This document shows, one piece after another, positions 7,808 through 11,968 of a stretch of DNA of 57,619 nt. Both the position numbers and the translations under genes were made by a program. The stretch covers positions 1 through 57,619 of the forward strand of contig DATMBC010000031.1 of assembly GCA_035559435.1 (NCBI GenBank), read 5' to 3'. This DNA is from a bacterium (GTDB lineage Bacteria; Zixibacteria; MSB-5A5; WJJR01). A model generated the notes under the pieces. That model was not told the DNA's origin, searched no databases, and was given only the letters and a program-made list of their open reading frames with translations. Numbering within the stretch: the stretch's first letter is position 1; each line of letters begins with the position of its first letter.

Positions 7808-10800
7808 ATGACCAGTTCCGACAAGCTACGGACCTTGCTGGCCGAGCAGTTTCGCGCCGAAGACATCGAGATCACGCGGTTGTTGAACGAGAGGGATTTC
7901 GCCGGGGCGGTGGCGCGCTGCAAGGCGCTGGCATCGCGGTTTGAAAATCTCCCGCAGTTCTGTCACCGGTACGGCGATGCGCTGATGCGGCGGCAGTTTG
8001 TCCGCGACGCGATCACCTGGTACGAACGGGCCATCAAGGCGGGCGGACGCGACGCGCACTACTACCTCGCGTTGGCGGACGCCTACGCCGCGCTGGAAGA
8101 CGGGGCCGACGCCGAGATTCAGGCCTTGTGGGAAGGAGTGCGGGACTCGTTCGATCCCCTGGCGATCTATGGACGGCTGGAGAATCTGCTGATCAGCGGC
8201 AATTATCGTGACGAGGCCTTCCGGCTGGTCGACACGATCAAGGAACGATTCCGCCATAAACCGGAACTGTGCTATCTGCAGGCCGAGGCGGCGCATTCGA
8301 TCGATTTGTTGCCGACGGCGGTGGAATTGTTGCGCCGGAGCCAGAACGCCAATTACTTCGGCCATCGTCACTATTTCATCCTCGGCGACTGCTTCGGCTA
8401 TTTCGGAATGGACGAGCAGTCGATTCGCTTCCTTCTGCGCCAGATGGAACGGAATGACGGTCCCGTCGGCGATGCACTTCGGGGCATCTACGACATCATC
8501 AAATGGCGGCGCCGCGGCGGCGATGACCGTCTGCTGGCCGCCATCCATTGGGAGTACCTCACGCTCTATGCCGACCGCGGCCTCGGGCGGCAGACGCAGA
8601 TGCGCTACCTGGACGCGGAACCGGAACCATCCCGTGCCGTATACCAGGAGTTCCGAGAGAAACATCTTGGTAATCCCAAGCACCCTGGCTACGCCATCCA
8701 ACTGGAAATCGGCGACCAGATGGCCTATGCCGCGTTCTTCCTGCGGCTGCTTCTCTATCACCGGGAACACCGTTCGGACTTCTTCAGTGCCCGGGAGTCT
8801 TTGATCGAGTGCGCCGAGCTGCTGAGCTCGCTGGCAGCGGATTCGATCGAGTCTCGCTACTTCCTGATGTGGGCTCGCATCGAGCAAAAGGAGTTCCGCG
8901 ATGCCCAAAGACTCGCCGCGCGCCTCGACGAGGACATCGCCCGTCGCATCTATCCCGGCCAGAACCCGAGTGAATTCAACTACGCCCTGCACTTGATCGC
9001 GGACGCGCTTCCCGCCAAATCGCGTCGGGATCGGCAGAAGCCGGGCGTCTCCGAAGCAAAGCTTGAGAAACCGGAGCAGGCGGAACTCCAGGAATTCGGC
9101 ATCGATCTGACCGCGCAGTACCGGGCCAAGAAACGGGCGGCGCCCGTGTCCGCTTCCGCGGCGGATGTTGCCCGTCTGGCCCACGCGCTGCAATCCGGGG
9201 GACCCCTCTGCATCGTATTGACCGGGCCATCGGGCGTCGGGAAAAGCGAGACGGTGCGGGCGCTGGCCTGTGCGCTGGCCGGCCCCGCCGCTCCAAGCGG
9301 CCTGGAAGGACACGCGATCATCGAGTCATCCACCAGCGTTCTCGTGGCGGGTGCGGGCATTCTCGGCACCTGGCAGGAGCGGCTGCTGGCATTCTGTCAC
9401 ATGGCGTCGTTGGACAACAAGCGGATCATCTACCTGGAAGATCTGCATAACATCTTCGGCGTCGGGCGCGTGTCTGATGACAAATCGCGGTTCGCCGACG
9501 TGTTCCTGCCGCTGCTCGAGCGTCGCCAGATCGCTGTGATCGGCGAGATGACGCACCGCCAGCTGGAGGACCTGCGCGCGCGCGAACCGCGGTTCTTCCG
9601 TATGGCGAAGGAGATTCCGGTCACCGAGCCGTCGCGCGATCAGATGATCGAGATTCTTCACAGCTGGGCGCACGCGCCATCGGCGGGGTCGCTGGAGTTC
9701 TCCCCACCCGCGCTGCAGCAGATTTACAACCTGGGTCGGACCTTCATGCCCTACCGTGCCTTTCCGGGCAAGGCGCGCGAGATCCTTGACGGCGTCATCG
9801 CCACTCGTGAGACGGAAGCGAGACCGTCTGGCGCCGTCGGCGCCGGCGACGTCACCGCGTCCTTCTGCCGCGCGACCGGCATCCCCGAATTCATCGTCGA
9901 TGAACGCGTGCCGTTGGATCAGGATCGCCTGCGAACCTTCTTCGCCGAGCGTGTGCTGGGGCAGGATCAGGCCATCCGTCCGGTGACCGAAGCAGTGGCG
10001 TCGTTCAAGGCGCGGATCAACGATCCGAACAAACCAATCCGCAGTTTCCTGTTTGTCGGCCCGACGGGTGTGGGCAAGACCGAGATGGCCAAGGTTCTCG
10101 CCGAGTATGTCTTCGGCGACCGGGGACGCATCATCCGGCTGAACATGTCCGAATACTCCGACGCCAACGCCGCGTCGAAATTGATCGCCGCGCCGCATCA
10201 GTTCAATCCGCAGGCCGGGCACTTTCTCGCCGAGGTGCGCCGGTCACCCTTCAGCATCGTACTTCTGGACGAGATCGAAAAGGCGCACCCGGATGTCTTT
10301 CATCTGCTGCTGCAAATGCTCGACGAGGGTATCCTGCAGGATGAGACCGGCACGCCGGCCTACTTCCAGTCGAGTTTTGTGATTATGACCTCAAACCTCG
10401 GCGCGCGCCGGTACACCGACCGGCAGATCGGCTTCGGCGGCGGCGACACGATTGGCGACCTGCAGCAACAGGTGATGAAGGACATCCGGGAGTTCTTTAA
10501 TCCGGAGGTGCTCAACCGGATCGACGAGCTGGTCTTCTTCACTCCGCTCGACGAAGCGGCAATCCGCCGGATCATCAACCGCGAGGTGGGGAAACTGCTG
10601 GATCGACAGGGGATCATTGAACGCGGCATTCAGGTCGAAGTCGATCCGCTGGTGCTCGATCACATCATGGAGATCGGCTACGACGCCCGCTACGGGGCGC
10701 GGAACATCAAGCGGACGGTCGAGCGCCTGGTCGCGACGCCGTTGGCGCAAGTGATGGCCGGTCAGTCCGTCCCCGCCGACGCGCTCATTCGCATCAATCT

Positions 10801-11968
10801 AAAGGAAGGGACGCCGACGGCGCATCTGATCCGTGCCGAGGAATGGCTGTTACCCGACCATCTACGGGCGCGTCAGAACAAAGAGCAAACTGATGTCACC
10901 GCCCTCTCGCAGCAGGAATTGAAAGGCATGGCCGGCGCGCTGGCCGCCCGGGTGGACTCGCTCAAGCAGAAACTGCGTTATGAGGAGCTGATGCAGGAGC
11001 ATCAGGCGTTGCAAAAGGAGATGCTGCGTCCGGGATTCTGGGACACGCCGGGCAGGGCGAACGAAGTCGTCCGCCGTTACGCCGCGGTGAACCGCCGCAC
11101 CGAACGCATCCACAAGTGGGAGTCGCTCTGCGGACGCATCGACGCGCTCTTGCAAACGTCACCGGCGCGAATGGCCGCCGCCGAAAAGGCCCGGGTTCGG
11201 TCGCAGGTTCTGGGACTCTCAAAGGAGCTGGAATCGGCGGAGCTGGAAATCCTGCTGGAGGGCAAGTACGATTCGGCGGACTGCTTTGTCCTCATCGCCG
11301 CGGAGTCCAGCCGCCGCGATCACATCCGCTGGGTGCACGAACTGGCGGGCGTCTACCGGAGTTGGGCGCGTCGGCGCAGTTACCCCTGCCGTGCCGTCGG
11401 CGAGGCGCTCACCGGCGACCGGATGGAGTACGGGGTCGTGTTGCACATCGGCGGGATGAACGCGTTTGGGTTGCTGAAGAATGAGCGCGGGATTTATCGT
11501 CGGACGTCGGTGGACACCGACGGCCGCGCGAAGAGCCGCGAATCGATCGATGGCCAGGTGATCGTGCTGGCCGATGTCCAGCCGCTGGCCGATGCTCCGC
11601 GGCGCGCGACGGTCACGGTGCAGAAACTGAAGAAAAGCCAGGCGGGACACTTCGTGGCGCAGCTGAGCCGCCAGGTGACCGCGCAGGCTGAACGCGGGAC
11701 GCCTCCGATCACCTTCCTCGCCGATGCCGCCATCGAGAAGGATGGCAACCTGCCGCAGGAGATGTATTTGTCGTACCTCCATTACCGCCAACGCAGCCAG
11801 GCGCGGCCCGGTTCAGAGCACAACGGTGCCTGGGGATCGCTGGTTCGCACCTACTTCACCGGCCGGCAGAACCGGATTGTCGACCACGAAACAAAGATGG
11901 TGATCGATGATGTGAAGGGGTATTTCAACGGCAAGATCGATTCGCTCTTATTGGAACGGATCATCTGA
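7808..11968 (+). CDS. TPR - Clp-type double AAA+ ATPase - RF2-like fusion protein
   Basis: A 1386-residue continuous frame. Residues ~20-400 are helical TPR-like repeats. A first AAA+ module resembles ClpA/B D1: Walker A GPSGVGKS (K479), Walker B RIIYLED (E544-D545). A second resembles ClpA/C D2: GPTGVGKT (K757), VLLDEIEKAHPDV (D821-E822), sensor-1 TSNLGA (N863), Arg finger LNRID (R904), sensor-2 GYDARYGARNIKR. IGF at 874-876 sits exactly where ClpA has its ClpP-docking IGL. No ClpN domain or M-domain coiled coil. Residues ~1040-1386 follow class I release factor RF2: PGFWDTP (1075), EGKYD (1151-1155), LLKNERGIYRR, and the C-terminal WGSLVRTYF...DHET...GKIDSLL. The GGQ position reads SQAGH (1277-1281) and the SPF motif is absent, so it should not hydrolyse peptidyl-tRNA. 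A ribosome-linked unfoldase or adaptor is my inference. Confidence 0.85.
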   Translation: MTSSDKLRTLLAEQFRAEDIEITRLLNERDFAGAVARCKALASRFENLPQFCHRYGDALMRRQFVRDAITWYERAIKAGGRDAHYYLALADAYAALEDGADAEIQALWEGVRDSFDPLAIYGRLENLLISGNYRDEAFRLVDTIKERFRHKPELCYLQAEAAHSIDLLPTAVELLRRSQNANYFGHRHYFILGDCFGYFGMDEQSIRFLLRQMERNDGPVGDALRGIYDIIKWRRRGGDDRLLAAIHWEYLTLYADRGLGRQTQMRYLDAEPEPSRAVYQEFREKHLGNPKHPGYAIQLEIGDQMAYAAFFLRLLLYHREHRSDFFSARESLIECAELLSSLAADSIESRYFLMWARIEQKEFRDAQRLAARLDEDIARRIYPGQNPSEFNYALHLIADALPAKSRRDRQKPGVSEAKLEKPEQAELQEFGIDLTAQYRAKKRAAPVSASAADVARLAHALQSGGPLCIVLTGPSGVGKSETVRALACALAGPAAPSGLEGHAIIESSTSVLVAGAGILGTWQERLLAFCHMASLDNKRIIYLEDLHNIFGVGRVSDDKSRFADVFLPLLERRQIAVIGEMTHRQLEDLRAREPRFFRMAKEIPVTEPSRDQMIEILHSWAHAPSAGSLEFSPPALQQIYNLGRTFMPYRAFPGKAREILDGVIATRETEARPSGAVGAGDVTASFCRATGIPEFIVDERVPLDQDRLRTFFAERVLGQDQAIRPVTEAVASFKARINDPNKPIRSFLFVGPTGVGKTEMAKVLAEYVFGDRGRIIRLNMSEYSDANAASKLIAAPHQFNPQAGHFLAEVRRSPFSIVLLDEIEKAHPDVFHLLLQMLDEGILQDETGTPAYFQSSFVIMTSNLGARRYTDRQIGFGGGDTIGDLQQQVMKDIREFFNPEVLNRIDELVFFTPLDEAAIRRIINREVGKLLDRQGIIERGIQVEVDPLVLDHIMEIGYDARYGARNIKRTVERLVATPLAQVMAGQSVPADALIRINLKEGTPTAHLIRAEEWLLPDHLRARQNKEQTDVTALSQQELKGMAGALAARVDSLKQKLRYEELMQEHQALQKEMLRPGFWDTPGRANEVVRRYAAVNRRTERIHKWESLCGRIDALLQTSPARMAAAEKARVRSQVLGLSKELESAELEILLEGKYDSADCFVLIAAESSRRDHIRWVHELAGVYRSWARRRSYPCRAVGEALTGDRMEYGVVLHIGGMNAFGLLKNERGIYRRTSVDTDGRAKSRESIDGQVIVLADVQPLADAPRRATVTVQKLKKSQAGHFVAQLSRQVTAQAERGTPPITFLADAAIEKDGNLPQEMYLSYLHYRQRSQARPGSEHNGAWGSLVRTYFTGRQNRIVDHETKMVIDDVKGYFNGKIDSLLLERII

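Follow-up and report, generated by a model that had tools for sequence, protein, structure and literature searches.

What might a bacterium do with a Clp-type ATPase that carries at its C-terminus a release factor apparently unable to read a stop codon or release a peptide? The question is raised by a gene at positions 7808–11968 (+) of a 57,619-nucleotide stretch of a Zixibacteria genome (contig DATMBC010000031.1), hereafter called the window. The gene is one uninterrupted open frame encoding 1386 residues, as an earlier first-pass annotation, made from the sequence alone, had reported. The best explanation, although one we hold at a little short of an even chance, is that the product is a ribosome-directed, non-hydrolytic remodelling ATPase. 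The bolder claim, that it represents a distinct bacterial machine for ribosome rescue or quality control, i.e., a Clp-derived ATPase guided by a built-in pseudo-release factor and working without peptidyl-tRNA hydrolysis, is put forward somewhat more tentatively.

The fusion of a Clp-type ATPase with a module derived from release factor 2 (RF2) is real. A full-length homologue occurs in another family of the same class (37% identity, E 1.7e-281), and 11 divergent members, full-length or nearly so, were found in at least three phyla. AAA_2, ClpB_D2-small, and PCRF lie above the Pfam cut-offs in all eight members scanned, i.e., the window protein and seven others. In trees, the RF-like modules group together in a single clade (100/100), which stands beside ordinary RF2s when RF1 is the outgroup; a single clade (100/100) with largely matching subgroups also unites the AAA+ parts. 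The branches are long, and it is therefore uncertain exactly where the family belongs among RF2s and Clps. The single clade for both halves makes a single ancient fusion event likely. An assembly artefact or chance fusion is ruled out by the 11 members and the monophyly of both halves. The central observation of the first-pass annotation, a Clp-type ATPase joined to a degenerate RF2 module, therefore holds, and both homologies, as well as the losses of the GGQ and codon-reading elements, are family-wide.

The annotation had also proposed that some 345 C-terminal residues follow RF2, and this is borne out over the whole module. The NCBIfam model prfB (TIGR00020) matches residues 1045–1231 (E 8.6e-29) and, when the C-terminal piece is searched alone, gives E 2.1e-30. 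With phmmer, residues 3–336 of that piece align with residues 11–351 of E. coli RF2 (E 5e-14). The PCRF part carries the motifs FWD, AELE..L..D, W...Y..W, and G...(A)(F/Y)G.L..E.G..R. The Pfam comparison of residues 1040–1386 was divided: PCRF was matched, but the catalytic-domain family RF-1 was absent from the families listed for all eight members scanned, the lists for some of them giving the best 25 families. Structure prediction agrees with the RF2 assignment. An AlphaFold model built from two family sequences and no RF2 is of low confidence (predicted local distance difference test score, pLDDT, 58.5), and all 32 of its Foldseek matches in the PDB at E ≤ 1e-3 are class I release factors, the best being the RF2 structure 1gqe (E 4.8e-11, template modelling score 0.51). 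A model from 13 sequences reached a pLDDT of 83.7 and found only release factors among the matches listed; it is partly circular, since RF2 sequences were included in the input.

The GGQ motif is essential for peptide release. It is lost in all 11 members, and the equivalents of RF2 Gln252 and Asn255 are found in none; in the window protein SQAGH stands in its place, as had been noticed at the outset. The SPF codon-reading motif was likewise correctly reported as missing while the fold-defining parts are kept, and this holds across the alignment: S205 is retained in one member, P206 in two, F207 in none, and T215 in one. Of the RF2-invariant positions, 75% are retained in domain 1 (four positions only), 41% in domain 2, 22% in the catalytic domain 3, and 57% in the C-terminal part. 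In one member, G822, part of the codon-reading loop survives as HRLVRQSP, as would fit an origin from a working RF2. The window genome encodes genuine RF2 and RF1 elsewhere; thus, the fused module is an extra paralogue. Since GGQ is essential and is gone, peptide release and stop-codon reading are excluded on known chemistry. Judged by its motifs, the module appears to be an RF2 homologue along its whole length that lacks release chemistry and codon reading. The equivalent of switch-loop residue Trp319 is retained in 8 of the 11 members; in RF2, W319 stacks on A1492 (PMC6561943).

The ATPase core was analyzed by aligning the 11 members with the window genome's own ClpC and ClpB, with E. coli ClpA and ClpB also compared. 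The NCBIfam ClpA model matches residues 394–982 (E 5.2e-102), contiguously over model positions 133–718. The long coiled-coil middle domain of ClpB is therefore absent, and a GF loop foreign to the genome's own ClpB is present. No Clp N-terminal domain is found; in its place stands a TPR-like region or nothing. The TPR-like repeats described earlier are weak in the window protein itself, whereas homologues match TPR_19 clearly (1e-14 in G248 and 4e-6 in G265); Chloroflexota members, of 998–1047 residues, lack this part.

The two AAA+ modules, D1 and D2, had been described as both complete. A Walker A motif does occur in both wherever the region is complete, and that of D1 is retained in all members except the frameshifted G387 copy, which does not cover the region. 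However, the D1 Walker B DE is lost in 11 of 11, replaced by ED, RD, PR, or DQ. In the window protein D2 is intact, with Walker A GPTGVGKT, Walker B LLLDE, sensor 1, and an Arg finger; these motifs and sensor 2 are intact in 10 of the 11 members. The exception is G531 (locus L109, a 987-codon frame on the minus strand), where D2 is degenerate too, with Walker A GPVGVGKI (GVGKIE), Walker B LLDD, and no Arg finger; its motifs suggest that it is possibly a fully inactive version of the ATPase. The D2 pore motif GYVG is lost in every member, and the window protein reads QFNP (798–801), with F799 in the Tyr column. Most members have a degenerate D1 pore loop as well, and K-aromatic-x-G is kept only in G021, G265, G387, and G248. 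At the ClpP-docking loop position, by contrast with the hypervariable loop around it, GF is invariant (11/11). The corresponding tripeptide is MGF in the genome's own ClpC and IGL in E. coli ClpA, which upholds the earlier alignment of the window's IGF with ClpA.

We suggest a mechanism as follows. The RF2-derived module would dock in or near the ribosomal aminoacyl (A) site, where it would be unable to read a stop codon or hydrolyse peptidyl-tRNA. A Clp-type assembly, presumably a hexamer, would hydrolyse ATP in the intact D2 ring, while D1 would mainly bind nucleotide or assemble the ring. The ATPase would then remodel what is bound there, which could be a ribosome that has stalled, its nascent chain, or a factor attached to it, and the material might be handed to ClpP via the conserved GF loop. 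Ribosome docking is the most natural reading of the module, given the Trp319 equivalent in most members; we infer it, like the hexamer, the remodelling, and the identity of the target. Several points weigh against this proposal. The module has lost its codon-reading loop, its GG(T/V)EA element, and the majority of the conserved domain 3 residues, so that the fold may serve another partner. The switch-loop Trp is lost in three of the 11 members. A hexamer would bring six RF modules to a single A site, which is geometrically awkward. Finally, no conserved neighbour ties the fusion gene to translation, as RtcA is near it in the window only and its neighbours in Herpetosiphon are pyrR and pyrB.

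The losses of the catalytic, codon-reading, and GG(T/V)EA elements, the non-translational gene neighbourhoods, and the strong divergence among members in domain 3 (17% mean identity) speak for a rival in which the RF fold has been re-used off the ribosome. It would now recognize substrates or act as a scaffold in a Clp-like remodeler, in place of the Clp N-domain. We regard this as rather unlikely, if the most serious of the rivals. The fold-defining residues are retained, as are the switch-loop residues in 8 of 11, and the module is under purifying selection; had any helical scaffold sufficed, only coincidence would explain why that of RF2 is conserved across the family.

The first-pass annotation itself had suggested that the protein may dock on stalled or damaged ribosomes and extract or degrade nascent chains or factors, perhaps with ClpP; on this view, stalled chains or factors would be threaded into ClpP. 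The invariant GF within a hypervariable loop, matching the ClpC and ClpA tripeptides, suggests that ClpP, or a partner binding in the same way, still matters. ClpP is present in all 12 relatives tested, and a bona fide ClpP in six of the seven tested genomes that carry the fusion gene or a remnant. The window genome is the exception: its assembly yielded no bona fide ClpP (best PF00574 match 9.7e-5), and the signs of a partnership with ClpP are thus ambiguous. The assembly consists of 106 contigs, so a gap could explain the missing gene; an assembly gap and a real loss are both possible. The threading step is weakened by the core itself. In ClpA, the GYVG and KYR tyrosines grip substrate (PMC9663308), and processive unfolding is thought unlikely for the Torsins, which are related to Clp but lack aromatic pore loops (PMC5425593). 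With GYVG and the D1 Walker B DE each lost family-wide and the D1 pore loop mostly degenerate, processive threading is doubtful, and ClpP-coupled degradation of nascent chains is a poor second choice among the alternatives to our proposal.

That the pore motif is missing while the GF loop is conserved and the D2 ATPase intact could be reconciled if the protein were a regulatory subunit in mixed hexamers with ClpC or ClpA, the RF module serving as a targeting tag and the partner supplying the pore loops. A ClpC is encoded in the window genome, alongside a ClpB. Such an arrangement is purely conjectural, however, and the AAA+ part shares with ClpC only about 40% of its residues in D2 and fewer in D1; we consider the arrangement improbable, slightly more so than ClpP-coupled degradation.

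Returning to the putative ribosome-directed ATPase, its gene is rare but widely scattered. In the window's class, Candidatus Zixiibacteriota, 2 of 132 genomes have the fusion, a member being G021 (WJIM01000340.1). The annotation had held that absence from close relatives would count against a genuine fusion; G001 and G002, which belong to the same genus, do indeed lack it, but it recurs in distant relatives. Further copies are found in G265 and G387, of one small phylum, and in G248, as well as in at least 11 genomes of a 400-genome sample of Chloroflexota, the phylum of G472. Among the carriers is the cultured Herpetosiphon aurantiacus DSM 785 (G620; second replicon 100% match to CP000876.1). 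This spread is a lower bound, as a peptide-pattern scan of genome contigs gave one further member only.

Across Herpetosiphon genomes, the ratio of nonsynonymous to synonymous substitution rates (dN/dS) is 0.02–0.04 for the whole fusion gene, ≤0.007 for D2 with its small domain, and 0.02–0.10 for the RF module, compared with 0.014–0.025 for the neighbouring pyrB. The gene is thus under strong purifying selection there. A decaying pseudogene or functionless chance fusion, which the patchy spread, a truncated relic in G367, and the frameshift in G387 might bring to mind, is barely credible and, for the family as a whole, refuted by frames of ~960–1390 codons conserved across distant phyla, the single clade of both halves, and dN/dS far below 1.

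In the G367 relic (L044:8834–9818), the D2-small end is followed by a deletion and then by the latter half of the RF2-like module, the pieces being in differing frames, which suggests that this lineage lost the gene. A standalone 803-residue Clp-like protein with GYVG and IGF is encoded in G050 (locus L007, G050:C1:1650806–1652551); it groups weakly (83/80) beside the AAA+ part of the family and is possibly a relative of the family's ancestor. A viral or plasmid origin was rejected: phage and plasmid collections gave ordinary RF2-like matches only, at 18–24% identity, and a pattern scan of IMG/VR found no viral relative.

Table 1. Positions of the fusion gene and its parts in the window.
Feature	Residues	Window position	Strand	Basis
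Whole fusion gene	1386 aa	7808..11968	+	Single open frame; full-length homologue
N-terminal helical/TPR-like region, accessory	1-430	7808..9097	+	TPR_16, E 0.0046
D1 AAA+ module, ClpA/C-like, degenerate	~431-690	9098..9877	+	Pfam AAA 469-601; ClpC/ClpB alignment
D1 Walker A GPSGVGKS, kept	473-480	9224..9247	+	Alignment
D1 Walker B position, IIYLED	540-545	9425..9442	+	ED (544-545) replaces DE
D2 AAA_2 module	742-907	10031..10528	+	Pfam AAA_2, E 5.8e-45; motifs by alignment
D2 pore-1 loop site, HQFNP	797-801	10196..10210	+	Compared with APPGYVG of own ClpC/ClpB and with E. coli ClpA/ClpB
IGF tripeptide, ClpP-docking loop position	874-876	10427..10435	+	Alignment
ClpB_D2-small domain, sensor 2 GAR	914-990	10547..10777	+	Pfam, E 1.5e-13
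RF2-derived module	~1041-1386	10928..11965	+	prfB; PDB RF2; Foldseek
PCRF part	1062-1231	10991..11500	+	Pfam PCRF, E 6.9e-16; retention table
Former codon-reading stretch, SPF and HTS absent	1232-1248	11501..11551	+	Alignment
SQAGH at the GGQ loop site	1277-1281	11636..11650	+	Alignment
WGS, equivalent to RF2 switch-loop W319-G320-S321	1342-1344	11831..11839	+	Alignment

A search for conserved genomic neighbours, as the first-pass annotation advised, found none common to different phyla at the loci compared. Upstream in the window, 1.27 kb away, lies a gene for RtcA, the RNA 3′-terminal phosphate cyclase (5502–6542, +; PF01137, 8.7e-83). RtcA was not seen near the fusion genes at other members' loci, and a PrfH/RtcB-type RNA repair operon was rejected on this ground. 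In six Herpetosiphon-genus genomes, the fusion gene is part of a pyrimidine operon, where pyrR and pyrB flank it and pyrR overlaps or directly adjoins it (L104:6016–10736 in H. aurantiacus, with the fusion gene at L104:6621–9704; L066, L102, L103, L105, and L106); the fusion gene of G579 also overlaps pyrR. Both pyr genes were named from their sequences, not by family search. An anti-phage defence system was likewise rejected, PADLOC matches being confined to the AAA+ core, i.e., to AAA+ defence ATPases. No Rfam match to a riboswitch or structured RNA was found near the fusion gene, no promoter-like site was found at it, and terminators were at chance level. Elsewhere in the window are genes for a SprT-like protein (870–1553, +; 5.3e-14) and an ADP-ribosylglycohydrolase (1732–2769, +; 2.8e-58), with tRNA-Met (1600–1676) between them, and tRNA-Leu (13106–13189).

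No AAA+ machine covalently bearing a release-factor module is described in the open-access literature covered by a limited search; the first-pass annotation also knew of no characterised protein like it. We regard the architecture as new: it is homologous to both RF2 and Clp, yet fails the defining functional features of both. The design is ancient, common to distant phyla, and maintained under selection. If the protein acts on ribosomes, bacteria would have in it a new way of rescuing or remodelling them; H. aurantiacus DSM 785, as a cultured and sequenced host, makes it directly testable.

Known systems resemble it in part. As in RF2 (PrfB), the module runs from a helical domain through PCRF and domain 3 to the C-terminal part, and RF2 is its best structural match; it differs in lacking GGQ, SPF, and HTS, in being joined to a Clp-type ATPase, and in coexisting with a separate, genuine RF2. 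With ClpA and ClpC it shares the D1–D2 layout without a long middle domain, the D2-small domain, and GF at the ClpP-docking position, whereas the Clp N-domain, the D1 Walker B DE, and the D2 GYVG are missing and an RF2 module is present. PrfH (RFH) and ArfB/ICT1 are also non-canonical bacterial relatives of class I release factors, acting in rescue or repair, but GGQ is kept in these families and no ATPase is fused to them. PrfH is linked to RtcB; near the fusion there is only an RtcA gene, in one genome.

Torsins are likewise ATPases related to Clp/Hsp100 D2 that lack aromatic pore loops (PMC5425593), although they are eukaryotic endoplasmic reticulum proteins with a single ring, activated by LAP1/LULL1. 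In eukaryotic ribosome quality control, Vms1 and Cdc48 also couple a release-factor-like protein to an AAA+ ATPase, but with other folds and non-covalently, by a VIM motif (PMC6514570). Dom34/Pelota has the unrelated eRF1-family fold of archaea and eukaryotes and a separate partner ATPase, and its ribosome binding is proven whereas that of the fusion is only inferred. Dom34 is, however, a release-factor paralogue without the catalytic Gln (PMC6514570). As a catalytically dead release-factor paralogue that plausibly serves as a rescue factor with an ATPase, the fusion protein would have its closest analogue, in logic, in Dom34/Pelota.

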